Notes under the pieces: model-generated
What the model was told of the DNA's origin: nothing
Seen by the model: only the letters and a program-made list of their open reading frames with translations
Databases searched by the model: none
Shown: in pieces, positions 6,847 through 39,539 of the stretch
Layout of the letters: every line of letters starts with the position of its first letter
Position numbering within the stretch: position 1 is the first letter of the stretch
NCBI RefSeq assembly: GCF_000715505.1
Contig: NZ_JHEH01000014.1
Location: 1-64,000 of the forward strand
Source of the DNA: Thioclava dalianensis
Lineage (GTDB): Bacteria; Pseudomonadota; Alphaproteobacteria; Rhodobacterales; Rhodobacteraceae
DNA length: 64,000 nucleotides
Direction: 5' to 3'
Program-made: the position numbers and the translations under genes

Positions 6847-7002
6847 CACCGCAAAGGTATGTGATCGGCGCGCCGGGACAAGCGCGACACAGCGCGCAGA
6901 CGCGCGCATTTCTGCCTTTCAGTCAATCCATGCACAGCCCGGACGCGGTCCGGCCCCTGTTCAAGGCGCTTTCCATGCGGTATTGAGACGCGACAGGAAA
7001 TT

Positions 7003-7020
7003 GCCCGAGTCCCCTCGGGC
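7003..7020 (+). other. Hairpin in ilvD leader
   Basis: A perfect 7-bp stem GCCCGAG / CTCGGGC with loop TCCC ends 21 bases before the ilvD start codon. It may affect translation or transcript stability. I see no leader peptide rich in branched-chain codons, so classical attenuation is not supported. Confidence 0.35.
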
Positions 7021-7041
7021 GCGACAGAAACGGAATACTCC

Positions 7042-8877
7042 ATGGCCTTTTATCGTTCCCGCAGATCCACCCATGGGCGCAACATGGCAGGCGCGCGGGG
7101 CCTGTGGCGCGCAACCGGTATGACCGACGATGATTTCGGCAAGCCGATCATTGCGGTCGTGAACTCGTTCACGCAGTTCGTCCCCGGCCACGTCCACCTG
7201 AAGGATCTGGGCCAGATGGTCTGCCGCGAAATCGAGAACGCAGGCGGTGTTGCCAAGGAATTCAACACCATCGCAGTCGATGACGGCATCGCGATGGGCC
7301 ATGACGGCATGCTCTATTCGCTGCCCTCGCGCGAGGTGATCGCGGATTCGGTCGAATATATGGTCAACGCCCATTGCGCCGATGCGATGGTCTGCATCTC
7401 GAATTGCGACAAGATCACCCCCGGCATGCTGATGGCCGCGATGCGGCTCAACATCCCGGTGATCTTCGTCTCGGGCGGGCCGATGGAAGCGGGCAAGGTT
7501 ACGATCGACGATCTGGAGCGCGCCGTCGATCTGGTCGATGCAATGGTGATCGCCGCCGATGACAAATACACCGATGCGCAAGTGGCCGAGATGGAGGCAA
7601 ATGCCTGCCCGACCTGCGGCTCTTGCTCGGGGATGTTCACGGCCAACTCGATGAACTGTCTGGCCGAAGCGCTGGGGCTTGCACTGCCGGGCAACGGCTC
7701 GATGCTGGCCACCCATGCCGACCGCAAGGAGCTGTTCCTTGAGGCGGGCCGCAAGATCGTCGAGATCACGCGCCGTCATTACGAGCTGGAGGACAAGGGC
7801 CTGCTGCCGCGCGAGATCGCGACCTTTGAGGCCTTCGAGAACGCGATGAGCCTTGATATCGCGATGGGCGGCTCGACCAATACCGTGCTGCACCTGCTCG
7901 CGATTGCCCATGAGGGCGAGGTCAATTTCACCATGGACGACATCGACCGGCTCTCGCGCAAGGTGCCGGTGCTGTGCAAGGTCGCGCCGGCCAAGCAAGA
8001 CGTGCATATGGAAGACGTCCACCGCGCGGGCGGCATCATGGGCATTCTGGGCGAGATGAACCGGGGCGGGCTGATCCATCAGGACGCGCGCACGGTGCAT
8101 TCCGACACGATGGGCGAGGCGCTGGCGAAATGGGACGTGATGAGTTCCAATGAAGAGGCCGTCGATCAGTTCTATCGGGCAGCCCCCGGCGGCGTGCGCA
8201 CCACGCAGGCCTTCTCGACCGAAAACCGCTACAAAGAGCTGGACCGCGACCGGGAGAACGGCGTGATCCGCACGGTCGAGCATGCGTTCTCGCAAGATGG
8301 CGGGCTTGCCGTGCTGTTTGGCAACATCGCCGAGCAGGGCTGCATCGTGAAGACCGCAGGGGTCGACGACTCGATCCTGAAATTCACCGGCACCGCCAAG
8401 GTCTATGAAAGTCAGGACGACGCCGTGTCGGGCATCCTGACCGGCAAGGTCGAAAAAGGCGAAGTGGTCATCATCCGCTACGAGGGACCGCGCGGCGGAC
8501 CCGGCATGCAAGAAATGCTCTACCCGACCTCCTATCTGAAATCCAAAGGTCTGGGCAAAGACTGCGCGCTGCTGACCGACGGGCGGTTCTCGGGCGGCAC
8601 TTCGGGCCTCTCCATCGGGCATGTCAGCCCCGAGGCCGAAGAGGGCGGGCTGATCGGTCTGGTCGAGACCGGCGACACGATCGAGATCGATATCCCGAAC
8701 CGCACGATCAACCTTGCCGTGGCCGATAACGTGCTGGCCGCGCGCCGCGAAGCCAAGGGCCCGTTGCCGTGGAAACCGGCAGCGCCGCGCAAACGCGCCG
8801 TCTCGACCGCGCTCAAAGCCTATGCGCTGCTGGCCTCGTCGGCAGCCAAAGGCGGCGTCCGGGTGCTGCCCGACTAA
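7042..8877 (+). CDS. ilvD: Dihydroxy-acid dehydratase
   Basis: A 611-residue enzyme that dehydrates 2,3-dihydroxy-3-methylbutanoate and its homologue to the 2-oxo acids in valine, leucine and isoleucine synthesis. The iron-sulfur cysteines are visible in [10 protein letters not shown] (about residue 120) and in [17 protein letters not shown] (about 190-208). The C-terminal signature [14 protein letters not shown] lies near residue 515. Length matches E. coli IlvD (616). It is a single-gene unit: divergent from the lhr gene on the left and closed by a strong intrinsic terminator on the right. Confidence 0.97.
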
Positions 8878-8902
8878 AGCGCGCGCCGCTGACTGAAACG
8901 CG

Positions 8903-8933
8903 AAAAGCCCTCGGCTCAGGCCGGGGGCTTTTT
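8903..8933 (+). terminator. Intrinsic terminator of ilvD
   Basis: Stem AAGCCCTCGG / CCGGGGGCTT with a 6-base loop is followed by a T-run, starting 26 bases after the ilvD stop. The A-rich left flank means it could also serve the opposite strand, where the FUSC gene ends 34 bases further on. Confidence 0.9.
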
Positions 8934-8966
8934 CATAGCGGCTGGCAGCTGGCCCTCCGGCGCGAT

Positions 8967-10013
8967 TTAGGATGGCAGCGAGCTGCCCATCCCAAGCGCC
9001 TCGCGGATCCGATGCGCGAGATAGGAGACCACGAGGGCCGCCCCACCGCCCAGCAAGGTGCCCACGATCCGCCCCCACGCATTCACGACAGGCTCGGCAT
9101 TGCCCATCGTCACCATGACCACGATCAGAGCCGTCAGGAAGGCCACGAAGCTTGGGAAATGGCGCCCGATGAACAGGATCGAGATCATCCCGAACAGCAC
9201 GTAGAACACTGGCAGCACCGGATTGGCTGGACCCAGTACAAGCACAAGCACGCTGGCCCCCACCGCCCCTGCCACGGTCGCGCCGGTGCGCAACGCAACC
9301 CGCTCCCATGTCAGCCCCGGTCGCGGCCCCAGCATCAAAAGCGCCGAGAGCGGCGCCCAATAGGGATGGTTGATCGCAAGGATCAGCGCGATGCCATAGG
9401 ACATGCCCACGGCCAGAATGGCCTGCAGCCCCTGCCCGATCACCGCATCGAGCGGTGCAGCCCCCTCCGGTGGCGCCTGCCCGTCGAGCGGCGCGCGATG
9501 GTCGGGGCCGAGCCAGCCCCAAGCCACGCGAAGCCCCTCTTCGATGGCAATCACCCAGATCATGGCCAAGGCGACCGTGACCAGCACCACCGCCGGGCTG
9601 TCGACATAATGCACGAGAAAGCCTGCAAGCGAGAAGAACAGCCAGCTTTGCAACAAGACCCACCACAGGCTCATGTCGCGCCGGGACAGAGCCCCCACGA
9701 CAAAGGCCCCGATCAACATGCCCGGAACGGTGAGCGCTACGCCTCCGACATGGAATTGCGCCGCAGCCATGCCCGCCGCAATCCCGAGCATCTTGCCCGC
9801 GATATCCATCAGCGTGATCGGCCAGCGGCGGTCGCGAAACCCCTTGCCCTGTCCCGTCGAGGTGGCAAAGCCCACGCCAAGTGCCGCCAGTTCCTGCGCG
9901 CGCGGCAAATCGAGCCAGAGCACGCCCATCAAGAGCCCGCTCAGGGCCACGACCGCAGGCAGCGCCCTTGGCCAGTTCAGATCCGCCACGCGGCGCAGAA
10001 GATCGATCATCAT
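8967..10013 (-). CDS. FUSC-type inner-membrane protein
   Basis: A 348-residue polytopic protein with two hydrophobic blocks of about six segments each, separated by a hydrophilic stretch near residues 160-195. This repeated arrangement and the RTGATVAGAVGA segment in the second half fit the FUSC/aromatic acid exporter superfamily (YccS/AaeB-like), but the large cytoplasmic domain of AaeB is absent. Substrate is unknown. The frame is open upstream to a TTG at 10034; I start at the ATG pair 10013/10010. No operon partner is adjacent: poxB ends 78 bases upstream on the same strand. Confidence 0.7.
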   Translation of the reverse strand: MMIDLLRRVADLNWPRALPAVVALSGLLMGVLWLDLPRAQELAALGVGFATSTGQGKGFRDRRWPITLMDIAGKMLGIAAGMAAAQFHVGGVALTVPGMLIGAFVVGALSRRDMSLWWVLLQSWLFFSLAGFLVHYVDSPAVVLVTVALAMIWVIAIEEGLRVAWGWLGPDHRAPLDGQAPPEGAAPLDAVIGQGLQAILAVGMSYGIALILAINHPYWAPLSALLMLGPRPGLTWERVALRTGATVAGAVGASVLVLVLGPANPVLPVFYVLFGMISILFIGRHFPSFVAFLTALIVVMVTMGNAEPVVNAWGRIVGTLLGGGAALVVSYLAHRIREALGMGSSLPS

Positions 10014-28165: not shown

Positions 28166-28204
28166 CCGAGGCGGCCCTGATCGGATCAGGGCTGCTTCGG
28201 TTTT
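28166..28204 (+). terminator. Intrinsic terminator after MDR oxidoreductase gene
   Basis: A 17-bp stem with two G-T type mismatches (starting CCGAGGCGGCCCTGATC) closes over a short loop and is followed by TTTT. The stop codon of the convergent SDR gene lies inside the stem, so the structure is shared between the two gene ends. Confidence 0.82.
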
Positions 28205-28869
28205 GGATAGACCGGCAGATGCGGGATCAACACGTATTCGGGCTGCTCGATCGCGAAGAGGAACGCCCGCGCCACATCTTCAGGGCGCAGCGCATCGGGT
28301 TTCGCCTCATCAAAGAAGGGCGTGTCGACCATGCCCGGATGCAGACAGGTGACGCGCCCCCCGGCTGCGCCCAGTTCCTCGCCAAGATTGTCGGCATAGC
28401 CCCGGATGAACCATTTGGTTGCCGAATAGACCGAGCCCCACATCGGGCCTTGCGAGGCTTTGGAACCGGTCAGCACCATATGCCCTTTTGACGCGCGCAG
28501 ATGCGGCAGGGTGAATTTCGCGGTATAGGTCACCGCAAGGCAATTCAGCTCGATCATCTCGCGCAGGCTCTCGACCGGGGCGGCCTCGGTCCCGCGCGCC
28601 GATGCGCCGACACCTGCATTGGCCAGCACCACGTCGAGCCGACCGTAATGTGCAACCGCACGCGCCACCATGCGCTCCTGCGCCTCGGGATCGGTCACAT
28701 CGGTCGGCAGCGCCAGCGCGTTCTCAGCGCCCAGCTCCGTGACGAGCGCCTCCAGCTTATCGCTCGACCGCGCGGCCAAGGCGACCTTGTGGCCCGCCGC
28801 GACCGCATGGCGCGCGCAGCTCTCGCCGATGCCAGAGGAGGCACCGGTGATAAGAATGATTTTCGACAT
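28186..28869 (-). CDS. Short-chain dehydrogenase/reductase
   Basis: A 227-residue classical SDR. The cofactor motif TGASSGIG lies at residues 8-15, NAG at about 85, the catalytic serine in LTGSKAS (about 134) and the YSATK active site at about 149-153. Substrate is unknown. AAGAGG precedes ATG 28869. It is 66 bases downstream of the DJ-1-type gene on the same strand and may be co-transcribed with it. It differs from the SDR half of RhaD-type fusion enzymes only in being separate, so a link with the nearby aldolase is possible but unproven. Confidence 0.85.
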   Translation of the reverse strand: MSKIILITGASSGIGESCARHAVAAGHKVALAARSSDKLEALVTELGAENALALPTDVTDPEAQERMVARAVAHYGRLDVVLANAGVGASARGTEAAPVESLREMIELNCLAVTYTAKFTLPHLRASKGHMVLTGSKASQGPMWGSVYSATKWFIRGYADNLGEELGAAGGRVTCLHPGMVDTPFFDEAKPDALRPEDVARAFLFAIEQPEYVLIPHLPVYPKPKQP

Positions 28870-28935
28870 CTCAGCCTCTTTGAAAACAGTGTGAACGAAA
28901 AAAGCGCCCCCCGATCCGGGAGGCGCCCTGTGTCG

Positions 28936-29619
28936 TCAGCTCAGCAGAGCCAGCACTTTTTCCGCTGCCGCCTCAGAAGAGGCCGGGTTCTGGCCCGTCA
29001 CCAGCCGCCCGTCGACCACCGCATGGGGCTGCCAGTCGCCCACGCTTTCAAACTGCGCGCCCAGCTCGCGCAGGCGGGTTTCCAGCAGGAAGGGCACGGC
29101 ATCGGCAAGGCCCACGCCACGCTCCTCGCTGTCGGTGAAGGCCGAGACCTTGCGCCCTTTCACGATGGACACGCCATCTTTGTCCACGACCTTCGCGAAG
29201 GCCGCCGGACCGTGACAAACCGAGGCAACCACCTTGCCGCCATCCCAAGCAGCGCCAATCGCCTTGGCGGCGACATCGCTCTCGGCGAGGTCGTACATCG
29301 CGCCGTGACCGCCCGGAATATAAAGCGCGTCATAAGCGGTCACGTCCTCATCCTCGAGGCGGCCAGGGTTTGCCAAAAGCGCCGAGGCCACCGGATCTTC
29401 GCGGAAACGGGTGACAGATGCGGGCGCGTCATCGCCCGTCACATCCGAGTTCGGATCAATCGGGACCGGTTTGCCCGCGAGCGTGACGAGTTTGACCTCA
29501 TGCCCGGCGTCAAGGAAGGCGTAATACGGAGTCGCCAGTTCCTCATACCAGACGCCTGTGGATTTGCCGGTGTCGCCGAGGGCCTGTGCCGCGGTCGAGA
29601 GAATAAGAATGCGTGCCAT
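28936..29619 (-). CDS. DJ-1/PfpI-family protein (Hsp31-like glutamine amidotransferase fold)
   Basis: A 227-residue class I glutamine amidotransferase-like protein. The nucleophilic elbow is visible as ASVCHGPAAF (about residue 125), with the cysteine followed by histidine as in Hsp31/YajL-type proteins. An acidic partner, probably the Glu in STGVWYEEL (about residue 21), and the flap region AGHEVKLVTLAGKPVPIDP are present. Members act as glyoxalase III, chaperones or deglycases. GGAGG precedes ATG 29619. It is divergent from the LysR gene across 143 bases, the usual position for a target of that regulator. Confidence 0.85.
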   Translation of the reverse strand: MARILILSTAAQALGDTGKSTGVWYEELATPYYAFLDAGHEVKLVTLAGKPVPIDPNSDVTGDDAPASVTRFREDPVASALLANPGRLEDEDVTAYDALYIPGGHGAMYDLAESDVAAKAIGAAWDGGKVVASVCHGPAAFAKVVDKDGVSIVKGRKVSAFTDSEERGVGLADAVPFLLETRLRELGAQFESVGDWQPHAVVDGRLVTGQNPASSEAAAEKVLALLS

Positions 29620-29749
29620 TTTTTGGCCTCCTTCATGTCTGCGGTTCAAGGCGTCTCCGGCCCTGTCTGTCTCGGGCCATCAACGCGTCTAGGCAAAGAT
29701 AGGTTGCATTTAACAAACGAGAAATTGATGCAGGCCACGTCAGAAATCG

Positions 29750-29764
29750 ATATATTGGATATAT
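29750..29764. promoter_or_regulatory. AT-rich dyad overlapping LysR start codon
   Basis: ATATAT-TGG-ATATAT lies across the ATG of the LysR gene and faces the DJ-1-type gene. AT-rich dyads with a T-N11-A character in divergent lysR intergenic regions often bind the regulator. The position over the start codon would suit autorepression. Confidence 0.35.
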
Positions 29765-30671
29765 GACACCCGATATCTCGCTTCTGCGCGTGTTCCATGC
29801 CGTCATGGAAGAACGCAATGTCACCGCCGCAGCCCAGAGGCTCGGTCAATCCCAAAGTACCGTGAGCGCGGCGCTGTCGCGGCTGCGCGCGGTGCTGGGC
29901 GATGAGCTGTTTCTGCGCGCGCGCTACGGCGTGGAGCCGACCGAGAAGGCCCTTGAGATCGCGCCCGACATCGCCGCCGGGCTGGAGCGGCTGGAACAGG
30001 CCTTCCGCGCCGCCGAACCCTTTGACCCGGCACGCACCACGCGCCGCTTCCGGCTGTTGCTTGGCCCCTATGCCGAAATCGTGCTGGCCCCGGAACTGGC
30101 CGCCGCCTTCGCACAAGAGGCCCCGTCGGCACGCCTCGAAATCTCTCCCATCGGCCCGGATCTCGACCCGCGCGTCCTTGCGGGGCATGCGTTTGATCTG
30201 GCCGTCGGGCGGTTTCACGCACCGCCCGAAGATCTCGTGGTCTCAGAGCTGATCAATGACGGGTTTCGCTGCATCGTCGCGCCGCAGGCCTTGGCCGATG
30301 GCGCGCCGCTCGACCGCGCGCTCTATGAGACGCTCCCCCATGTCGTCATCGCCCCGCCCGGCAAATGGCGCACGGGGGTTTACAAGCGCACCGAGGCGAC
30401 CGGGCTGCGCCGCAACACCACGGTCGAGGTCACGCATTTCCTGACAGCCGCCCCCACGGTCGCGCGTCTGGGCGGGATTGCCACGGTGCCCGCCCGGGTG
30501 GCCGCCATGACCGCAGGCCCCTATGGGCTGCGCAACCTGCCCGTTCCGATCGATCTTGGCACGTTTCCCAGCCAGATCGCGTGGCACCCCCATCTGCGCC
30601 GTGATCCGGGCCATGCTTGGCTGCGCGGGCTGATCGCAGGGCTCGCGGCCAGATTCACGGCAGCGGGCTAA
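29763..30671 (+). CDS. LysR-family transcriptional regulator
   Basis: A 302-residue regulator with an N-terminal winged helix-turn-helix: LLRVFHAVMEERNVTAAAQRL, then QSQSTVSAALSRLRAVLGDELF (residues 7-52). The effector-binding PBP2-like domain starts near residue 90 (RRFRLLLGPYAEIVLAP). The inducer cannot be inferred. No Shine-Dalgarno sequence is visible before ATG 29763, where the sequence is AT-rich and palindromic, so translation may be weak or leaderless. It is divergent from the DJ-1/SDR pair and convergent with the aldolase gene. Confidence 0.88.
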   Translation: MTPDISLLRVFHAVMEERNVTAAAQRLGQSQSTVSAALSRLRAVLGDELFLRARYGVEPTEKALEIAPDIAAGLERLEQAFRAAEPFDPARTTRRFRLLLGPYAEIVLAPELAAAFAQEAPSARLEISPIGPDLDPRVLAGHAFDLAVGRFHAPPEDLVVSELINDGFRCIVAPQALADGAPLDRALYETLPHVVIAPPGKWRTGVYKRTEATGLRRNTTVEVTHFLTAAPTVARLGGIATVPARVAAMTAGPYGLRNLPVPIDLGTFPSQIAWHPHLRRDPGHAWLRGLIAGLAARFTAAG

Positions 30672-30708: not shown

Positions 30709-31950
30709 TCAATTCTTCAGCTTGGCCTGTTCGAGCGACCAATATTCCATATCGAACAGCTCGCCCTCGGAGATCGGCGCGAACCGGCCGTAATCCTCCG
30801 CGGCATTCACGATGCGCGCCGTTTGCTCCAGCAGATCGCCCGCGATCCGCGACGCCTTGTCATTTGCGCCCAAACCGAACAGCCCCACCCCCGGCATAAG
30901 CACCACGCGCGGCGCGGGATCGAGCATGGTTTTCGGCTCCGAAGCATTGGGCGCGTTGCGCGCGAAATAGGCGGCGTAACGATCGGCATATTCGGCCAGC
31001 TTCCGCGTGATCGCGGCGGCATCATCGCCGGCCTCAAGGATCATCGGAAACGGCTTGATGCGGATCACATGGTCCGGGGTCGCAGTGCCGCGCATCGCCA
31101 GTTCCGCCAGATTTTCGCGCCCAAGATAGCGCCGGATTGCAGGCGTCGAGCGGAAATCGACCGCAGGCGCGGTGCCCAGCGCCCCTTGCGCGGCCAGTGC
31201 CTCGATCAGAGCTGCGGCAAGTTCTTCGGGCATCGGCGCGTCATTGGTCTGCGGGGCCTCGACCTCGATCCCTTTCGCCGCCAGAAACTCTTCGGCGGCG
31301 GTGACGAACTCAATCATCAGCTCATAGCTGTCGCGCGCGGTCTCCGCAAAGGTGAAAAGCCCGTGTTTCTCCAGCCAAAGCCCCTCGACCTTCGGATCGC
31401 GCGCGAGCGCATCATTACAGGCATGGCTGAGCGCGTAGCCGGGCATGACATAGGGCACGAAGCCGACCCGACCGCGATAGATCTCGCGCACCACCGGCTC
31501 CATATCCTCCTGATCGGCCAGCGCGAGGATGGCCGTGGCGTGGCTGTGATCGACGAAAGCCTGCGGCATATAGGCGTGCAGCAGCGCCTCAACAGAGGGG
31601 TTTGGCGCGGTCGGATCAAGAAGATGGCGGCGCAAAAAGGCGACCATCTCTTCGTCCGACATATGCGCAATCGCGCGGGTCTCCAGCAGCGGCTCCAGCC
31701 ACATCGCAGGCAGCCCGGGCGCCTCGATATCGCCCAGATCCCAGCCCGAACCCTTCACATGGATGATCTGCTTGCCCGGCGCATCGGGGATCTTGACCGA
31801 GGTATTGCCCCCCCCGTGCAGCACCAGATCGGGATCCTGTCCGATCAGGCGCGAGCTATAGACCCGCAGGCCCAGCGCTGCGGGTTGTCCCGCCGCTTCG
31901 GCGGCCTCGGCGAATTTGCGGGCGTCGGCGTCATTCCAGCGCGATTGCAT
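30709..31950 (-). CDS. Class II aldolase/adducin-family protein of the AI-2 (lsr) locus
   Basis: A 413-residue protein resembling the aldolase half of RhaD-type rhamnulose-1-phosphate aldolase/dehydrogenase fusions, but ending where the SDR half would begin. GGGNTSVK (about residue 48) is the phosphate-binding loop of the family, DHSHATAIL (about 130-138) gives two zinc-ligand histidines, and WLEKHGLFTF (about 195) gives a further metal ligand. ATG 31950 has a GAGGAG Shine-Dalgarno site; an ATG at 31971 lacks one. It follows lsrB by 70 bases on the same strand, where enteric operons carry lsrF-lsrG. I infer that it cleaves a phosphorylated AI-2 product, but this is untested. Confidence 0.82.
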   Translation of the reverse strand: MQSRWNDADARKFAEAAEAAGQPAALGLRVYSSRLIGQDPDLVLHGGGNTSVKIPDAPGKQIIHVKGSGWDLGDIEAPGLPAMWLEPLLETRAIAHMSDEEMVAFLRRHLLDPTAPNPSVEALLHAYMPQAFVDHSHATAILALADQEDMEPVVREIYRGRVGFVPYVMPGYALSHACNDALARDPKVEGLWLEKHGLFTFAETARDSYELMIEFVTAAEEFLAAKGIEVEAPQTNDAPMPEELAAALIEALAAQGALGTAPAVDFRSTPAIRRYLGRENLAELAMRGTATPDHVIRIKPFPMILEAGDDAAAITRKLAEYADRYAAYFARNAPNASEPKTMLDPAPRVVLMPGVGLFGLGANDKASRIAGDLLEQTARIVNAAEDYGRFAPISEGELFDMEYWSLEQAKLKN

Positions 31951-31975
31951 CAGCGGCTCCTCTCTCAACATATTT

Positions 31976-32020: not shown

Positions 32021-33040
32021 TCAGAAATCGAAGTTGTCGATATTGTCCTTGGTGAAAACGGCACGCTCGGGCAGCAGGACGATGCCATTATCCTTGGCCT
32101 CGTAGTTGTAGCCCTGCACCGAGTTGGGCGAGACCTTCACCTCACCCACGCCGGGCACGTTCATCGTATCGCCAACCTGAAGCGGGCCGTCTTTCAGCAC
32201 GTGATCGGCCACGGCCACCGAAATCGCGCCTTGCTTGGTCACGTCCCACAGGCCGAACCGCTTGACCGTGCCGCGCTTGACATAAGGGCGCATCACGTTG
32301 GGCGTCGAGAAGCCGACAATCGTCACCTTGCCCGCCTTACCAAGGTTTTCGGCGGCCTGAGCAGCTGCGGGCAGCGCATTGGCATCGGGCGCGATGATCG
32401 CATCGAGATCGGGATAGGCGCTCAGGATACCCTCAGCGGTCTGAAGCGATTTCTGCGCGTCATTATAGCCGTATTGCGTGGTCACGATCTCCCAGCCGGG
32501 ATGCTCCTTGGCGATCTTTTCCTTGGCCGCCGCGACCCATGCATTCTGATCGGTCACCGTGGGCGAAGAATAGAAGAAGGCGACCTTGGCCTTATCCTTG
32601 CCCTTCAGACCATCCGAGGCCATGTCCACCAGCATGCCGCCCAGCTGCGCCGGCGTGCCTTGGTTGATGTAGTAGGAGCGACATTCCGGGTTCACATCCG
32701 AGTCCCAAGTCATCACCAGAACGCCGCGTGCCATTGCCTGCTTGAGCGCCGGGCAGAGACCATCAGGCGAGACTGCGGCAACGATCACGGCCTTATAGCC
32801 CTGATTAACGAAGTTATTCACGAACTGAACCTGCCCCGAAACGCTGGGCTCGGTCGGGCCGTCATAGGTGACTTTGTCGCCAAGCTTCTTGCCCATCTCG
32901 ACGGCCCCCTTGCCGCCCGATGTGAAGTAGCCCACCCCGACAAGCTTCGGAATGAAGGCGATATCCGCGGCCGAGGCCGAATTGGCCATCAGCATCCCCG
33001 CCGCAAGGGTGCTCATCATCCATTTGGTCGTTTTACGCAT
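32021..33040 (-). CDS. lsrB: Periplasmic AI-2-binding protein LsrB
   Basis: A 339-residue periplasmic receptor (E. coli LsrB is 340). Signal peptide about residues 1-25 (MLMANSASA, cleaved before ADI). Residues reported to contact AI-2 in Salmonella LsrB have counterparts: the Asp in [10 protein letters not shown], Asp-Gln in TVTDQNAW and Pro/Ala in [10 protein letters not shown]. Long stretches such as [14 protein letters not shown] and the C terminus [17 protein letters not shown] closely resemble the enteric protein as I recall it. AGGAGG precedes ATG 33040; an earlier in-frame ATG at 33079 would overlap lsrD. It delivers AI-2 to LsrACD. Confidence 0.94.
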
Positions 33041-33075
33041 TTCAGTTCTCCTCCTCTGAACTCTTTGGGCGCGCG

Positions 33076-34059
33076 TCATTCTGACGGACGCGGCCGCACC
33101 GGAATGAACTCGCGCAGCAAGGGCGCCCCGTGGCGCATTGCGACGACGACAACCAGCAGCGCTCCGGACAACGCGCTGGAAACCTGACTGGGAACTCCGC
33201 TCATCTGCAGGCCCTGCTGCAGATAGCCGATGATAAACGTGGCGATGATGGTGCCGATCACCGAGCCCTGACCGCCATAGATCGACGCCCCACCAAGGAC
33301 GGCTGCCGTGATCGCGGGCAAAAGCGTGGCCTTGCCCAGATCCACCCGTGCCGAGCCGAAATAGGCCGAGAGCAGAAGCCCTGCCAGTGCAGCGGCGAGC
33401 CCGGTGATCACATAGGTCAGCATCTGAACCCGCGCGACGGGCATCCCCGCATGGCGGGCGGCGGATTCGTTCTGGCCGATCTGGAACACCAGCCGCCCGA
33501 AGCGCGTGACATGCAACAAAACCAGCATCACCAGTGAGAAGGAGAGGAACACGAAAAGCGGCATCGGCAGGCCGAAGATCATCTGATAGCCAAGCCCGGT
33601 GAACGCAGCCGGAAAGCCGCCGATCCCGTCAAAGCCATTCGCGCCGACCACGCCCGAGAGCACAGTTGCCGCCCCCGAGAACATGTAAAGCCCGCCCAGC
33701 GTGACCACGAGCGGTTGCAACCGCGTCAGCCGGATAATCGTTGCGTTGAGCAGCCCCGCCAGCGCGCCCGTCGCAAACCCGACGCCCAGCGAGACGGCCA
33801 GCGGCATGCCGAAGAAATTCGCGATCCCGAACGTGATTGCGCAAAGACCAACCGTGGAGGCAAAGCTCACATCGATCCCGCCTGCGATGATCACCAGCGT
33901 GAGCGGCACTGCCACGATACCCACCTGGACGAAATCCGAGGTGCCATAGAGCAGTGAGCCGAGATTGAGAAAGCGCGGGTTAATTGCTCCGAAGACCGCC
34001 AGTTCAAGAACCAGAATGCCGAGCAAAAGGACTTCCCACCGCATCATGAGACGCTTCAT
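33076..34059 (-). CDS. lsrD: AI-2 ABC transporter permease LsrD
   Basis: A 327-residue permease of the ribose/RbsC-type branch with about eight to ten membrane helices. The family signature for the cytoplasmic coupling region is seen as [19 protein letters not shown] (about residue 195). It is the second permease after LsrC, as in enteric lsrACDB. Its ATG overlaps the lsrC stop by 4 bases (ATGA) and it ends 35 bases before lsrB. Confidence 0.9.
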
Positions 34060-35066
34060 GCCGCTTCCTCCAGATCACGGGATTTCGATGGCTGCGTTCC
34101 GCCTCGGCGGTAGCGCGCGGCCCGATCTCGGGCCTCGAGCGCAATCCGTAACCGACCGTCGATCAGCAGCACCGCAAGCAACATCGCGCCGCCGATAAGG
34201 TCGTTCCAATAGGCCGGGATCTTGAGGAAGACGAGCGCGGTGTCGATCGAGGTGAAGAAGATCACGCCGATCACCACCCCCGCCACTGAGCCGACCCCGC
34301 CCAACAGGCTGATACCGCCTAACACAAGCGCCGCGATCGCTCGCAGTTCCAAGCCAGAGCCCGCCTGATTGGGCACAAACCCGATCTGCGCCGCAAAGGC
34401 GATGCCCGCGATTGCATACATCAAACCTGCCCAGACGAAGGCGAAGAACTCGATTCGGCGCACCGGCAGGCCCAGATGGCGCGCGGCCTCCCGGTTGTCG
34501 CCCACCGCAAAGATCCAGCGTCCGCGCCGTGTCCGCAGCACCAGCCAGACCACGACGATCACGGCCAATGCCACGATCCCGATTGCCGACAGTCCAAAGA
34601 AACCTTTATCCGCGAGGTCTTTGACGCCCTGCGGCAGCTCCTCGATCCACTCGCCGCCCGTGGCGATCAGCATCACGCCCCGGAACAGGCCAAGCGTGCC
34701 AAGCGTCGCCACGATAGAGGGCACACCGAGCAACGCCACGAGCCCGCCATTGAGCGCGCCTGCCGCAGCGCCCGCGCCAAGCGCCGCCGCGATCCCGACC
34801 GGCAGCGGCGCCCCGGCATTCACCGTCAGCCCAAGCGTCACCGCAGAGAGGCCAAGCACCGACCCGCCCGAGACATCGATATTGCGCGTAAGGATCACCG
34901 GGAAGATCCCGAGTGCCACGAGCATGAGCACCAGACCGTTCGACCAGATGATCGACGCCGTGCGCGCCGACAAAAAGCCGGGTGCGGCCATGCCGACCAA
35001 AAGCAACACGATCACGGTCACAAGAAACAACGTCGCGACTCGTTCGCGGGCGATCCGTTCAAGCAT
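34056..35066 (-). CDS. lsrC: AI-2 ABC transporter permease LsrC
   Basis: A 336-residue permease of the RbsC-type branch. VILTRNIDVSGGSVLGLSAV (about residues 55-75) is the conserved helix-2 signature of this family, and FAVGDNREAARHLGLPVRRI (about 205-225) is the coupling loop. ATG 35066 starts the protein as MLERIARERVATLF and overlaps the end of lsrA by 8 bases. With LsrD it forms the AI-2 channel. Confidence 0.9.
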   Translation of the reverse strand: MLERIARERVATLFLVTVIVLLLVGMAAPGFLSARTASIIWSNGLVLMLVALGIFPVILTRNIDVSGGSVLGLSAVTLGLTVNAGAPLPVGIAAALGAGAAAGALNGGLVALLGVPSIVATLGTLGLFRGVMLIATGGEWIEELPQGVKDLADKGFFGLSAIGIVALAVIVVVWLVLRTRRGRWIFAVGDNREAARHLGLPVRRIEFFAFVWAGLMYAIAGIAFAAQIGFVPNQAGSGLELRAIAALVLGGISLLGGVGSVAGVVIGVIFFTSIDTALVFLKIPAYWNDLIGGAMLLAVLLIDGRLRIALEARDRAARYRRGGTQPSKSRDLEEAA

Positions 35067-36534
35067 GGGCGGCCTCCTTGGATTCGAAGGCGAGCTGCGC
35101 GATCTCGTCCGTGCTGCTGCCGCCCGCAAGCGCACCAACGAGATGCCCGCCCGCCATCACCGCGATCCGGTCGGACAGGCGCACGACCTCGTCGAAATCG
35201 GACGAGATCAGCAACACCGCCGTGCCCGCATCGGCAAGCTGTTCGATCAATTCGTAAATATCGTTGCGCGCGCCGACATCGACACCGCGCGTGGGCTCGT
35301 CGAGGATCAAAACCCGTGGCTTGGCCGCGAGACATTTCGACAGCAGCACCTTTTGCTGGTTGCCGCCGGAGAGACTACGCACCGGCTGATCCGCCGTCTC
35401 GCATTTGATGCCAAGCGTCTTGCGATAGCCCTCAAACCGCGCCCGCTCCGCGCTGGGACGCAGCACGAAGGGCAACAGGTAATGAACGAGCGACGAGGTA
35501 TTCCAGAAAAGGGGCGCATCGAGGAACAGCCCGTATTGCTGCCGATCCTCCGACAGGATCACGACATTCTGGCGCACGGCCTCGCGCGGCGTGCGGGCCA
35601 GAAAGGGCCGCCCCTCCAGCGCGATCTTTCCGCCAGCGCGCGGCCGCAGCCCGACAAGCGTTTCGGCCAGCTCGGTGCGCCCTGCCCCGACCACACCGGT
35701 CAAGCCCAGCACCTCTCCATGATGCAGATCGAAGGAGATATCGACGAAGCCTTCGCCGCAGAGCCCTGTGACCTCAAGCGTCTTGCGCTCGGCCCGGGCG
35801 CGGTCGGCGCGCCGCTCACGCAGGGCTCCGACGCCGGGGCTCATCGCGGCCAGGATCTCGGCATCGCCGCTCTCTGACATCTTGGCGCTATGCATCACAT
35901 AGCCGTCACGCAGCACGGTGATCCGGTCACTGACCGCGCGCAGCTCGTGCAGCTTATGGGAAATGAAGACAAGACCATGGCCCGTTTCGCGCAAGGCCCG
36001 CATCCGCTCGAACAGCGTCTCTACCTCATGCGGCGTCAGCGCCGAGGTCGGCTCGTCGAGGATCAACACTTTCGCCTCGCGCACGAGACCCCGCAGAATC
36101 TCGACGACCTGACGGTCGGCGATCTCGAGCGTCGAGGCCTTGGCATCAGGCGAGAGCGCCACGCCCAGCTCTGCGATCAGATCACGGATACGGGTGCGAT
36201 AGGCCTCCGCCCGGCGTGGCAGGCCGATGCAGATATTCTCGAGAACGCTTTGATTTGGGAAGATATGCGCCTCTTGCGGCACCAGATAGAGCCCCATCGC
36301 CTGCGCCTGAGCGGGCGTTGCCGGAGACAGCGGCGCCCCGCCAATCGAGACGCGCCCGGCACTGGGCGCGATCAGACCGGCAAGGATCTTCATCAAGGTG
36401 GATTTGCCAGCCCCATTGCCGCCCAGAAGCGCATGAACCTCTCCGGCACGCACCTCGAAATCCACGCCCTTGAGCACAGGCACGTTGCCGTAGCTTTTCG
36501 AAACCCGGCCAAGCTCTGCGAGCACAGATGTCAT
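35059..36534 (-). CDS. lsrA: AI-2 ABC transporter ATP-binding protein LsrA
   Basis: A 491-residue ATPase with two fused nucleotide-binding domains, as in sugar transporters of the RbsA type. First domain: Walker A GGNGAGKSTL (about residue 40), Walker B VLILDEP. Second domain: VVGAGRTELAE in place of a canonical Walker A (about 285), signature SLSGGNQQKVLLSKCL (about 390) and Walker B VLILDEPTRGVDVG. The degenerate second Walker A is normal for this branch. ATG 36534 has GGAG 5 bases upstream. It is the first gene of the transport operon, facing lsrR across the shared control region. Confidence 0.92.
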   Translation of the reverse strand: MTSVLAELGRVSKSYGNVPVLKGVDFEVRAGEVHALLGGNGAGKSTLMKILAGLIAPSAGRVSIGGAPLSPATPAQAQAMGLYLVPQEAHIFPNQSVLENICIGLPRRAEAYRTRIRDLIAELGVALSPDAKASTLEIADRQVVEILRGLVREAKVLILDEPTSALTPHEVETLFERMRALRETGHGLVFISHKLHELRAVSDRITVLRDGYVMHSAKMSESGDAEILAAMSPGVGALRERRADRARAERKTLEVTGLCGEGFVDISFDLHHGEVLGLTGVVGAGRTELAETLVGLRPRAGGKIALEGRPFLARTPREAVRQNVVILSEDRQQYGLFLDAPLFWNTSSLVHYLLPFVLRPSAERARFEGYRKTLGIKCETADQPVRSLSGGNQQKVLLSKCLAAKPRVLILDEPTRGVDVGARNDIYELIEQLADAGTAVLLISSDFDEVVRLSDRIAVMAGGHLVGALAGGSSTDEIAQLAFESKEAAHA

Positions 36535-36578
36535 AGCGTCTCCTTCGCCCAGCACCCCAAATCCAGATTGTTCATCTG

Positions 36579-36590
36579 TTTTACGTAAAA
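36579..36590. promoter_or_regulatory. Palindrome in the lsrA-lsrR control region
   Basis: TTTTACGTAAAA is a perfect 12-bp palindrome 45-56 bases upstream of the lsrA start, flanked on both sides by copies of CATCTGTT. It sits where the lsrA promoter is expected and could be a second LsrR site or a site for another regulator such as a CRP-type protein. Confidence 0.45.
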
Positions 36591-36668
36591 ACATCTGTTC
36601 ACCTGGAATGCGTCCTGTCAACATTTTTTAGCTCATTTTTTACGCTGCATCGCGGCAAAATTGAGCGG

Positions 36669-36696
36669 TTGACTTGTTCAAATGATTTTGTAACGA
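36669..36696 (+). promoter_or_regulatory. Likely lsrR promoter
   Basis: TTGACT (-35) is followed after 16 bases by TAACGA (-10), 43 bases before ATG 36739. The -35 to -10 interval is covered by the inverted repeat listed next, so a repressor bound there would block RNA polymerase. Confidence 0.5.
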
Positions 36697-36708
36697 GTTA
36701 TTTGAACA
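36675..36708. promoter_or_regulatory. Putative LsrR operator
   Basis: TGTTCAAAT and ATTTGAACA form a perfect 9-bp inverted repeat with a 16-base spacer. It overlaps the lsrR promoter and lies 141 bases upstream of lsrA. SorC-family regulators act as oligomers on spaced half-sites. The related string TGTTCA also occurs around 36570 and 36596 on the lsrA side, which suggests multiple half-sites. Confidence 0.6.
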
Positions 36709-36738
36709 GTGACTGACTGCCTCGGAGGATCGATCACC

Positions 36739-37677
36739 ATGGAAGAGCTTGCGTTGAATGAAGCGGACGACGCCCTGCTCGCGCGGGTCGCTTGGCTGTA
36801 TTACAATGACGGCCTGACGCAGAGCGAAGTCGGCCATCAACTCAACCTCTCGCGGATCAAAGTGTCGCGGCTGCTCGATGCGGGGCGCGCCTCCGGGCTG
36901 ATCGAGGTGCGGATCAATTCGCGCCAGCAGGGCTGCCTCGAGATCGAGACGCGGCTGCAAGAGCGGTTCCGCCTCAAGGATTGCCGCGTGATCCCCGACA
37001 GCACCGGCGCAGATATCGACGCACGGATCGGGCAGGCCGCGGCGACCTTCCTGATGCAGAAACTCAATCCGGGCGACAGCCTCGCGGTTGGCTGGGGCGC
37101 GACCGTATCCAACGCGATCCGCGTGCTCGGCCATGTCGTGCATGAGCGCCGCATCGAGCTGTTTTCCCTGACCGGCGGCGTGCAGACCTATGTGCAGGGG
37201 ATGCGCGAGGCGCATTGGGATCGCACCCCCAACATCATCCCCGCGCCGCTCGTCGTCTCAACCCCGGAACTGGCCGCCGCCCTGCTGCGCGAGCCTGCGA
37301 TCTCGTCGCTGCTCAATCAGGCGATTGCAGCGGATTACAAGCTCGTAGGGATCGGCGGCATCTCAGAGCAAGCGACCGTCGTGTCGCAAGGCTACATCAC
37401 CGCGGGCGAGATCGAGCCCTTGCGCCGCAGCGGTGCGCGCGGCGATGTGCTGTGCCGGTTCTACGACCGGACCGGGCAGGACATGGAACTGCCACTGCAT
37501 GAGCGCGTGATCGGCGTCGACCTCGTCCAATTGCGCGATTGCGAGCAGGTGATCGGCGCGGCGGGCGGGCCGAACAAGGTGACCCCGATCCTCGCCGCGT
37601 TGCGCGGCCAAATTCTCGATATTCTGGTGACAGATGAGGCAACTGCGCTGTCCCTTCTCGATGCCGCGGAGGACTGA
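36739..37677 (+). CDS. lsrR: SorC/DeoR-type transcriptional regulator LsrR
   Basis: A 312-residue regulator with an N-terminal helix-turn-helix (GLTQSEVGHQLNLSRIKVSR, about residues 25-45) and a sugar-phosphate-binding SorC domain, in which GWGATVSNAIRVLG (about 115-128) is the phosphate-binding segment. In enterics LsrR represses the lsr operons until phospho-AI-2 binds. ATG 36739 has a GGAGG Shine-Dalgarno; the ATG at 36709 would lie at the edge of the operator and lacks one. lsrK follows after 1 base. Confidence 0.9.
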   Translation: MEELALNEADDALLARVAWLYYNDGLTQSEVGHQLNLSRIKVSRLLDAGRASGLIEVRINSRQQGCLEIETRLQERFRLKDCRVIPDSTGADIDARIGQAAATFLMQKLNPGDSLAVGWGATVSNAIRVLGHVVHERRIELFSLTGGVQTYVQGMREAHWDRTPNIIPAPLVVSTPELAAALLREPAISSLLNQAIAADYKLVGIGGISEQATVVSQGYITAGEIEPLRRSGARGDVLCRFYDRTGQDMELPLHERVIGVDLVQLRDCEQVIGAAGGPNKVTPILAALRGQILDILVTDEATALSLLDAAED

Positions 37678-37678
37678 T

Positions 37679-39208
37679 ATGCGCTATTTCCTCGCTTTTG
37701 ATGCCGGAACCGGGAGCGGACGCGCCGTCCTCTTCGACGAGACCGGCGCCGAGATCGCAACCGCCGGACAGGAATGGTGGCACGCAAGCGATCCACGCTA
37801 TCCCGGATCGATGGATTTCGACACGCAAGGCAATTGGACAGCCCTGGCGCGCTGCTGCCGCGAAGTGATCACCAAATCGGGTGTCGACCCCAAGGCCATC
37901 GTCTCGGTCAGCGCCACTTCGATGCGCGAAGCCTTCGTGCTTCATGATGAGAGCGGTGCGGAAATCTGGGCCTGCGCGAATGTCGATGCGCGCGCCGATG
38001 CCGAGGTCCGCGAACTCAAGCGGGACTATCCGGGGCTGGAGGAAGACATCTATGCGCGCTCGGGCCAGACCTACGCGCTTGGCGCCCTGCCCCGGCTGAT
38101 CTGGCTGCGCCGCCACATGCCGCAGATTCTGGAGCGGACGCGGGCGCTGACGATGCTCTCGGATTGGGTGCTGTATCGGCTCTCGGGAGAGCTGACCTCC
38201 GAGCCCTCAAATGCCGGGACAACCGGGCTGATCGGACTTGCCGATCGCCGGGTGCTGGCCGATGCGATGGACAAACTGGGGCTGCGCTCCGATATCTTCC
38301 CGCGCAGCGTGGTGACGGGCGAATGCGTGGGCACCGTAACCGAAGCTGCAGCCGAGCAGACCGGACTTGCGCCGGGCACGCTGGTTGTGGCGGGTGGTGG
38401 GGATTGCCAGATCGGCGGGCTGGGGCTGGGCATCGTTGAGGATGGCGATTGCGCGGTGCTGGGCGGGACGTTCTGGCAGCAGGTGGTCAATGTGCCGCTG
38501 ACCCTCACCGATCCCAGCATGAAGCTGCGGATCAACCCGCATGTGGTCCCTCACCTCAATCAGGCCGAGGCGATCAGCTTTTTCACCGGAGCCGCGATGC
38601 GCTGGTTCCGCGATGCCTTCGGGCAAGGCCGGGGCTATTCCGAGCTGGAAGCCGCTTCGAAAGACATACCGCCCGGCGCGCATGGGATCATCCCGATCCT
38701 GTCCGATGTGATGCGCTACAACGAGTGGATTCACGCAGCACCGTCGCTGCTGAATCTCTCGCTCGATCCCGAGAAATCCGGCCCCGCCGCGATCTTCCGC
38801 GCGCTTCAGGAAAACGCGGCAATCGTTGCGCATCGCAACCTTGAGGCCGTGTTTGACCTGACCGGCCAGCGCCCGGCGCGCATCGTCTTTGCCGGGGGCG
38901 CGTCGAAATCCCCGCATTGGTCGCAGATCCTTGCGGATGTGACAGGCCTTCCGGTCGTGACCTCCAAGGTCAAGGAAGCCACCGCATTGGGTTGTGCTGC
39001 AGCCGCTGCCACCGGAGCGGGCCAATTCGGCTCGCTGATGGAAGCGGGGGCTGCATGGTCTTGCATCGAGGATAAATACGAACCGAACCGCGCCTTGCGC
39101 GATCTCTACGACGCAGCAGGCACACGCTGGGCGCGCGCCTATGCCGCGCAACGCGAATTGGTTGCCGAGAGCGTGACCCAATCCATGTGGCGTGCACCGG
39201 GCACGTAA
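37679..39208 (+). CDS. lsrK: Autoinducer-2 kinase LsrK
   Basis: A 509-residue FGGY-family kinase (E. coli LsrK about 530) that phosphorylates AI-2 (DPD) in the cytoplasm, trapping it. The N-terminal phosphate-binding segment is FDAGTGSGRAVLFD (residues 6-19), and the second ATPase-fold motif AGGGDCQIGGLGLG lies near residue 240. The adenine-binding glycines are in VFAGGASKSPHW (about 405). ATG 37679 follows the lsrR stop by 1 base with GGAGGA upstream, so lsrR and lsrK are coupled. The gene next downstream is lsrG. Confidence 0.93.
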   Translation: MRYFLAFDAGTGSGRAVLFDETGAEIATAGQEWWHASDPRYPGSMDFDTQGNWTALARCCREVITKSGVDPKAIVSVSATSMREAFVLHDESGAEIWACANVDARADAEVRELKRDYPGLEEDIYARSGQTYALGALPRLIWLRRHMPQILERTRALTMLSDWVLYRLSGELTSEPSNAGTTGLIGLADRRVLADAMDKLGLRSDIFPRSVVTGECVGTVTEAAAEQTGLAPGTLVVAGGGDCQIGGLGLGIVEDGDCAVLGGTFWQQVVNVPLTLTDPSMKLRINPHVVPHLNQAEAISFFTGAAMRWFRDAFGQGRGYSELEAASKDIPPGAHGIIPILSDVMRYNEWIHAAPSLLNLSLDPEKSGPAAIFRALQENAAIVAHRNLEAVFDLTGQRPARIVFAGGASKSPHWSQILADVTGLPVVTSKVKEATALGCAAAAATGAGQFGSLMEAGAAWSCIEDKYEPNRALRDLYDAAGTRWARAYAAQRELVAESVTQSMWRAPGT

Positions 39209-39230: not shown

Positions 39231-39539
39231 ATGCTGATTCAACTGGTGAATATCAAAGTGCAGCCGGGCACCCGCGAGACGTTTCTCGAAGCCTTCAAGA
39301 TCAATTGCGACGGCACCCGCGAAGAGCCGGGCAATCTGCGCTTCGACCTGCTGCACGACCCCGAGGACGCGAATAATTTCTTCGTCTATGAAATCTTCAA
39401 AAGCGATGACGCGCTCGAAGATCATCGCAAGACCGCCCATTATCAGAAATGCGTGGCCATGATCGATCCGATCACCATCGGCGGTCGCTCGAAGACCTAT
39501 TTCGAGCCGGTCCTGGTGCAGGGCGTCGCGCAGGACTAA
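39231..39539 (+). CDS. lsrG: Phospho-AI-2 isomerase LsrG
   Basis: A 102-residue antibiotic-biosynthesis-monooxygenase-fold protein. In E. coli LsrG isomerises phospho-DPD (P-HPD) to 3-hydroxy-2,4-pentadione-5-phosphate. The pattern GNLRFDLLHDPEDANNFFVYEIF (shown here as GNLRFDLL ... NNFFVYEIF, about residues 33-55) and the DDALEDHRKTAHYQK segment match LsrG. AGAGGA precedes ATG 39231. It is 22 bases after lsrK on the same strand, unlike enteric operons where it follows lsrF. Confidence 0.9.
   Translation: MLIQLVNIKVQPGTRETFLEAFKINCDGTREEPGNLRFDLLHDPEDANNFFVYEIFKSDDALEDHRKTAHYQKCVAMIDPITIGGRSKTYFEPVLVQGVAQD

Follow-up and report, generated by a model that had tools for sequence, protein, structure and literature searches.

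AI-2 is a widespread interspecies bacterial signal; depending on its route of destruction, an eavesdropper either feeds on the signal or silences it. LsrF moves the acetyl group of the hydrated LsrG product to CoA and leaves DHAP (PMC8016206), and lsrF and lsrG are the rarest of the lsr genes (PMC3420918). Alphaproteobacterial lsr loci without lsrF are already published: an lsrBDCARKG arrangement was described in 2008 in R. sphaeroides and S. meliloti, both of which are without luxS (PMC2561040), and a 2012 paper noted that lsr had been transferred to both Rhodobacter and S. meliloti, as well as a putative Rhizobiales variant containing a fructose-bisphosphate aldolase (PMC3420918). A response to AI-2 is on record for Ruegeria mobilis Rm01, which carries lsrABCDKR (PMC6333666), and is reported for S. 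meliloti, which makes none itself (Pereira 2008, cited in PMC6333666). In a paper on R. capsulatus, glycerone phosphate stands at the end of AI-2 degradation (PMC9603854). The word 'aldolase' is absent from the main text of both PMC2561040 and PMC9603854. Our literature search returned no AI-2 role for a class II aldolase, the LsrF structure paper being the only result where such aldolases were sought together with LsrB, LsrF, LsrK or AI-2; primary papers on S. meliloti and on LsrF/LsrG fall outside the search and may mention the gene.

The AI-2 cluster analysed here lies in a 64,000-nucleotide stretch of a Thioclava-like genome (the window), with lsrACDB and a class II (metal-type) aldolase gene on the minus strand and lsrR-lsrK-lsrG running divergently. 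The minus-strand genes encode the ATPase LsrA (35059..36624, true start probably ~36534; NF011967, 671.9 bits, cut-off 586), the permeases LsrC (34056..35138, true start probably ~35066; best match NF011961, 357 bits, cut-off 388) and LsrD (33076..34059; best match NF011612, 383 bits, cut-off 500), the AI-2-binding protein LsrB (32021..33079; NF011937, 619.6 bits, cut-off 384) and the 413-residue aldolase, hereafter ALD (30709..31950; PF00596, E 2.5e-19; N-terminal part of NF006192). On the plus strand are the genes for the repressor LsrR (36709..37677, start probably 36739; best match NF011947, 294.6 bits, cut-off 486), the AI-2 kinase LsrK (37679..39208; NF008187, 765.2 bits, cut-off 528) and the phospho-AI-2 isomerase LsrG (39231..39539; sole match NF007791, 97.2 bits, cut-off 135; PF03992), the last on the lsrRK side, where an earlier note on this DNA had placed it. 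NCBIfam cut-offs are passed by LsrB, LsrA and LsrK and missed by LsrC, LsrD, LsrR and LsrG despite their Lsr best matches; LsrG shares 45% identity with its enteric counterpart in locus L058. The closest solved relative of the window LsrB is SmLsrB of S. meliloti (3ejw, E 1.3e-173), and LsrB contains four ligand-site motifs whose residues presumably have the roles that we assign to them. An inverted repeat between lsrA and lsrR, read by eye at 36675..36708 (TGTTCAAAT...ATTTGAACA; no strand assigned), is a possible LsrR operator. A misread rhamnose operon was ruled out: LsrB, LsrK and LsrA score over the Lsr cut-offs with RhaS and rhamnulokinase models far lower, and the RhaD fusion of this genome sits elsewhere.

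The aldolase reading frame stands directly behind lsrB, as the earlier note had it. Its start at 31950 is preferred over an upstream ATG at 31971 because a GAGAGGAG-like ribosome site lies upstream of it and homologue alignments begin at that Met. ALD and a convergent LysR gene end 37 bases apart, which makes ALD the final gene of the lsrACDB operon. Beyond it, at window positions 28186-30671, are this LysR regulator, a DJ-1/PfpI-family protein and an SDR-like protein, the last named by eye with a 28% match to an SDR half. We rejected the downstream genes as pathway members, the DJ-1 and SDR counterparts not being close behind ALD in six annotated relatives. In two of the six (Alloyangia and Rhizobium WL3), ALD is followed by a LysR gene, which could merit attention.

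LsrF, reported missing in the earlier note, was found neither at the locus nor elsewhere in the window genome. The note had named an lsrF gene at another site of the genome as grounds for refutation, and this check turned up none. An enteric-type query from L058, verified as LsrF by NF006081 (537 bits), had zero matches there, and the sole PF01791 match is a deoxyribose-phosphate aldolase. An lsrF gene hidden by incomplete assembly is unlikely at a genome completeness of 99.99%. Two class II aldolases were found in the genome, ALD and the RhaD-type fusion on contig 57.

The lsrB-ALD order is not confined to this genome. LsrB was found in 6 of the 394 family genomes searched, in 1 of 385 from the class, in 11 of 398 from the phylum and in 17 of 327 from a second family; these draws overlap and their union is 32 LsrB genomes, of which flanks were read for 31 besides the window. 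Directly 3' of lsrB stood ALD in 15 of the 32 with the window counted, LsrF in 11, neither in six and both in none, and two of the 11 LsrF loci belong to the window's own family. Wherever an LsrB/ALD locus was measured, ALD followed lsrB on its strand with a gap of 52-104 nt between the aligned ends, and the order recurs in two survey families and on a Thalassospira plasmid, ruling out a chance neighbourhood. At an identity of at least 69%, with weaker matches (23-32%, several genomes) counted as other class I aldolases, LsrF was present genome-wide in one of the 15 ALD genomes (G1421, on a contig other than that of lsr), leaving 14 without it, versus 13 of the 17 others. Standalone ALD was found in none of the 13 non-ALD LsrB genomes searched genome-wide (17 less G997, G1017, G1071 and G1095), save for a remnant in G1285. 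The mutual exclusion has a Fisher p of 0.001 among genomes searched for both genes, and of 8e-5 with four extra LsrF genomes not searched for ALD, both values being rough since the rows are related. These counts support, across genera and orders, the view that an aldolase resembling the N-terminal half of RhaD-type fusions has taken the place of LsrF.

The six loci with neither gene are of several kinds. Behind lsrB are repeats that read as a CRISPR array in G291, a transposase-like ORF (by eye) near the contig start in G1188, an ALD remnant comprising residues 8-59 in G1285 and an LVIVD-repeat gene on the 3.6-kb contig of G1194; in G1262 and G1322, LsrF is encoded away from the locus. A long CRISPR-array-like run of short repeats occupies ~5600-9300 of locus L054, directly behind lsrB in the expected place of ALD. 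In a tree of LsrK, the LsrB/ALD loci group together (100/100), the three ALD-less loci of G291, G1188 and G1285 among them, and G1262 and G1322 fall with the LsrF-type loci. On the basis of this placement, the absence of ALD from the former three is probably due to losses. Four of the six genomes have no standalone ALD and no close LsrF anywhere, suggesting that the final step is dispensable.

The tie of ALD to AI-2 processing is strong. We infer its reaction, its ancestral and present substrate, its products, metal and regulation as follows. LsrACDB would import AI-2, LsrK would phosphorylate it and LsrG would isomerise it, shifting the ketone to C4, adjoining the phosphate-bearing carbon, and so creating a DHAP half in its product, P-HPD (CH3-CO-CHOH-CO-CH2OP). 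This half resembles that of RhaD, FucA and DrdA substrates, but C2 of the LsrG product is a ketone; the C2 ketone in place of an alcohol is the sole difference between P-HPD and 5-deoxyribulose-1-phosphate. With the DHAP half held at its metal and phosphate site, ALD would split the C2-C3 bond of the P-HPD C2 gem-diol to give DHAP and acetate, which amounts overall to a hydrolytic retro-Claisen reaction. Judging from sequence, we think it reasonably probable that ALD replaces LsrF at the last step of AI-2 breakdown by cleaving the P-HPD C2 hydrate in this way. Loss of the SDR half would fit with acetate, and no aldehyde, as the product. The split into C2 and C3 pieces suggested in the earlier note survives insofar as the C2 hydrate would give acetate and DHAP, but the keto forms of both proposed substrates are not normal retro-aldol substrates. 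Cleavage of a 1,3-diketone by a class II aldolase is not known to us.

ALD consists of an aldolase domain and a C-terminal domain of ~180 residues. It covers just the first ~427 positions of the 685-position aldolase/SDR fusion models of NCBIfam, PF00596 is its only Pfam match, and neither database matches it to the LsrF thiolase family (PF01791 / NF006081); the C-terminal SDR half of bifunctional RhaD was not found in its 413 residues. The C-terminal domain has no recognisable match of its own among the best 50 of 233 Foldseek rows. That ALD shares the operon position of LsrF, and that this uncharacterised domain could bind a cofactor, would suit an LsrF-like enzyme passing the acetyl group of P-HPD to CoA, with acetyl-CoA and DHAP formed by metal enediolate chemistry. 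We consider such a transfer unlikely: no CoA-binding family was matched in NCBIfam or Pfam, and the same C-terminal region is present in the aldolase-SDR relatives, for which we know of no use of CoA.

The origin of ALD was addressed with a tree of 60 rows (28 standalone ALDs, 29 aldolase-SDR fusions and three RhaD fusions; repeats and near-copies excluded). The 28 ALDs form a single clade (100/100) nested, for the rows sampled, in the aldolase-SDR fusions; the RhaD fusions form a separate group (100/100), and ALD is not among the rhaI/rhaS-linked RhaD enzymes. The sister clade of ALD comprises five fusions, four of them with MtnA nearby, and MtnA lies near 11 of all 29 fusions at over 70 bits or 13 at E 1e-6, some flanks being short. 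On Ensifer and Shinella plasmids the fusion adjoins genes annotated mtnK and mtnA; on an Agrobacterium plasmid it sits among glycerol-phosphate genes, not mtnK/mtnA. ALD is about 42-50% identical to the mtnA-linked fusions versus 28-34% to the rhamnulose enzymes. The RhaD-type likeness recorded in the earlier note is thus right as to an aldolase half without its SDR, but the closest relatives outside lsr are mtnA-linked fusions and not rhamnulose enzymes. The gene mtnA belongs to the 5-deoxyribose/methylthioribose DHAP shunt. In this shunt, class II aldolases cleave 5-deoxyribulose-1-phosphate or methylthioribulose-1-phosphate (PMC6079011, PMC12632272), and one of them, DrdA, converts the former to DHAP and acetaldehyde (PMC6079011). 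The mtnA-linked fusions would act as DHAP-shunt aldolases, and the best reading is that ALD was recruited from a 5-deoxypentulose-1-phosphate aldolase and subsequently lost the dehydrogenase half.

The link of the nearest fusions to mtnK/mtnA, together with the several aldehydes that class II DHAP aldolases accept (PMC6079011), could also mean that ALD acts on a 5-deoxy- or 5-methylthio-pentulose-1-phosphate, or on some other sugar phosphate, and not on phospho-AI-2 products. This we regard as quite unlikely, as the available surroundings of 27 ALD rows contain no MtnA match at E 1e-6, and the window, which supplies the 28th row, contains none at E 1e-3; furthermore, the sampled standalone ALDs all sit beside LsrK or, once, an LsrK paralogue, and it is only in the ALD clade, among the sampled rows, that the SDR half is missing.

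Residues N49, T50, S51, S68, G69, S119, E121, H135, H137 and H196 are invariant in all 28 ALD rows, which therefore all contain the three His (H135, H137, H196) and the Glu (E121) of the class II DHAP aldolase site; the metal-ligand, phosphate-site and catalytic roles of these positions are assumed by us from FucA. Position 121 is Asp in all three RhaD-type rows and Glu in ALD, and 12 alignment columns, not mapped to a ligand, separate standalone ALD from the fused rows. An AlphaFold2 model (alignment of the window and 24 loci; pLDDT 93) gives a predicted structure that resembles class II aldolases. The best PDB match in Foldseek is the aldolase domain 3m4r (E 1.3e-18), followed by fuculose-1-phosphate aldolases (6.9e-8 and weaker), with iron enzymes of the same fold close behind. 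Since pyruvic oxime dioxygenase (1.9e-7) and the iron enzyme TqaM (3.7e-7) share the fold with E-values near those of the fuculose-1-phosphate aldolases, and P-HPD is a beta-diketone, ALD might be a metal oxygenase, using O2 to cleave the 1,3-diketone. We judge this very improbable given that the close sequence models are all of aldolases, that 3m4r is itself an aldolase-domain protein and that the Glu which we take to be catalytic in DHAP aldolases never varies in the 28 ALD rows.

A closest-relative scan returned 24 loci, among them one in Pseudotabrizicola alkalilacus (L007) where LsrK, LsrR, LsrG and ALD are present and LsrB has no match. The binding protein encoded there aligns with LuxP structures at E 4.6e-46, as against ~1e-11 for ribose-binding proteins. 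Roseicitreum antarcticum (L082) has the same gene set plus an RbsD/FucU gene. A search of the family for LsrK found 12 of 394 genomes, four of which are of the LuxP type (G135, G386, G074 and G303; loci L137-L140); in all four, lsrG precedes ALD by 52-372 nt in the same orientation, and none has LsrF of at least 69% identity genome-wide. With L007 these make five distinct loci, L082 probably being from the same organism as L140, and in all five the LuxP-like receptor is accompanied by another ABC transporter. What we take to be the LuxP ligand positions are mostly retained (Ser, Trp, Asn, Arg, Thr, Trp and Arg, with one Gln changed to Glu), as read by eye from an alignment and partly by motif in the five loci, one motif failing in L139. 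The LuxP/ALD loci form a separate group in the LsrK tree (91/98), the deep branch order being unsure. As they retain LsrK, LsrG and ALD, ALD stays with LsrK and LsrG across a change of receptor. The least probable alternative, a direct cleavage of phospho-DPD close to one of the options in the earlier note, by which ALD would bypass LsrG and yield methylglyoxal and phosphoglycolaldehyde, is feasible on paper through a C3 hydrate but poorly fits a DHAP-type aldolase, because the phosphate would be on the electrophile half, the reverse of such enzymes, and because lsrG is retained in every LsrB/ALD and LuxP/ALD locus covered at full length and precedes ALD in the LuxP type.

Two further LsrK genomes differ from these. 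In G325 (L141) a contig end cuts the locus before lsrB. In G273 (L142:6200-13260) an ALD-clade enzyme of 56% identity has as neighbours a distant LsrK paralogue, a hydroxyacid dehydrogenase and a protein that looks VOC-like by eye; there is no lsrG match at this locus, and hence the ALD clade may include another substrate, the L142 enzyme maybe acting on a related yet different one. An LVIVD-repeat beta-propeller protein adjoins LsrK in L007 (3649-4905), L082 (7851-9107), L137 (8363-9619), L138 (10736-11950) and L140 (10562-11818); it was not found in the LuxP-type locus L139, and a protein of this kind also lies beside a 67% LsrB in L136 (1044-2267). LuxP-like proteins with ~34% identity to that of L007 occur on Ruegeria pomeroyi and Tateyamaria plasmids (L083:4173-11041 and L084:4184-11080), where the surrounding tandem sugar ABC operons showed no recognisable lsr genes.

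LsrF homologues of ~70% identity are also present away from lsr (L154:9640-11315, L155:8465-11865 and L153:7872-10768). Those of L154 and L155 adjoin an SDR gene, in L155 together with dihydroxyacetone-kinase-like genes (by eye), and that of L153 adjoins a weak aldolase-SDR. These neighbours suggest that LsrF serves another pathway too.

ALD in the place of LsrF suggests a second way of destroying AI-2. If this is correct, unrelated enzymes have come to fill the end of AI-2 breakdown on at least two occasions, one of them drawn from deoxysugar salvage; the predicted product is acetate and not acetyl-CoA; rhizobia and roseobacters have an AI-2-degrading branch that lsrF-based annotation overlooks; and ALD is a concrete enzyme for assay. 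The joint reading is that a DHAP-type class II aldolase was turned into a hydrolytic retro-Claisen enzyme on a 1,3-diketone phosphate, providing an acetate-forming, CoA-independent end to AI-2 breakdown in Alphaproteobacteria, and that there is, in addition, an unrecognised AI-2 import system comprising a LuxP-type receptor together with a dedicated ABC transporter, LsrK, LsrR, an RbsD-like protein, LsrG and ALD. In this full form we offer it tentatively, being slightly more inclined to doubt it than to accept it whole.

The 2008 description of lsrBDCARKG in R. sphaeroides and S. meliloti was reportedly by Rezzonico and Duffy. A Tritonibacter mobilis plasmid, from what we take to be the same species as Ruegeria mobilis, carries an ALD locus. 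The window cluster resembles the enteric lsr operon (lsrRK / lsrACDBFG) in its receptor, transporter, kinase, repressor, isomerase and divergent layout, but has a class II aldolase of another family in place of lsrF, and its lsrG lies behind lsrK. It is like the orphan loci of S. meliloti and R. sphaeroides in having the lsrBDCARKG genes without lsrF (PMC2561040), and on pSymB of S. meliloti ALD is found behind lsrB. The LuxP-like protein of L007 matches the Vibrio LuxP structures, although its gene is set among ABC transporter genes and those for LsrK, LsrR, LsrG and ALD. ALD has its aldolase half and C-terminal region in common with the RhaD-type bifunctional rhamnulose-1-phosphate aldolase/SDR, from which it differs in the missing SDR half, in the low identity given above and in Glu rather than Asp at 121. 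It also resembles DrdA/Ald2 of the DHAP shunt and the mtnA-linked fusions, in that the former are class II aldolases and the latter its sister lineage; ALD differs from them in standing alone, tied to lsrK/lsrG rather than mtnK/mtnA, and the skeleton of the DHAP-shunt substrate is one oxidation state from P-HPD.
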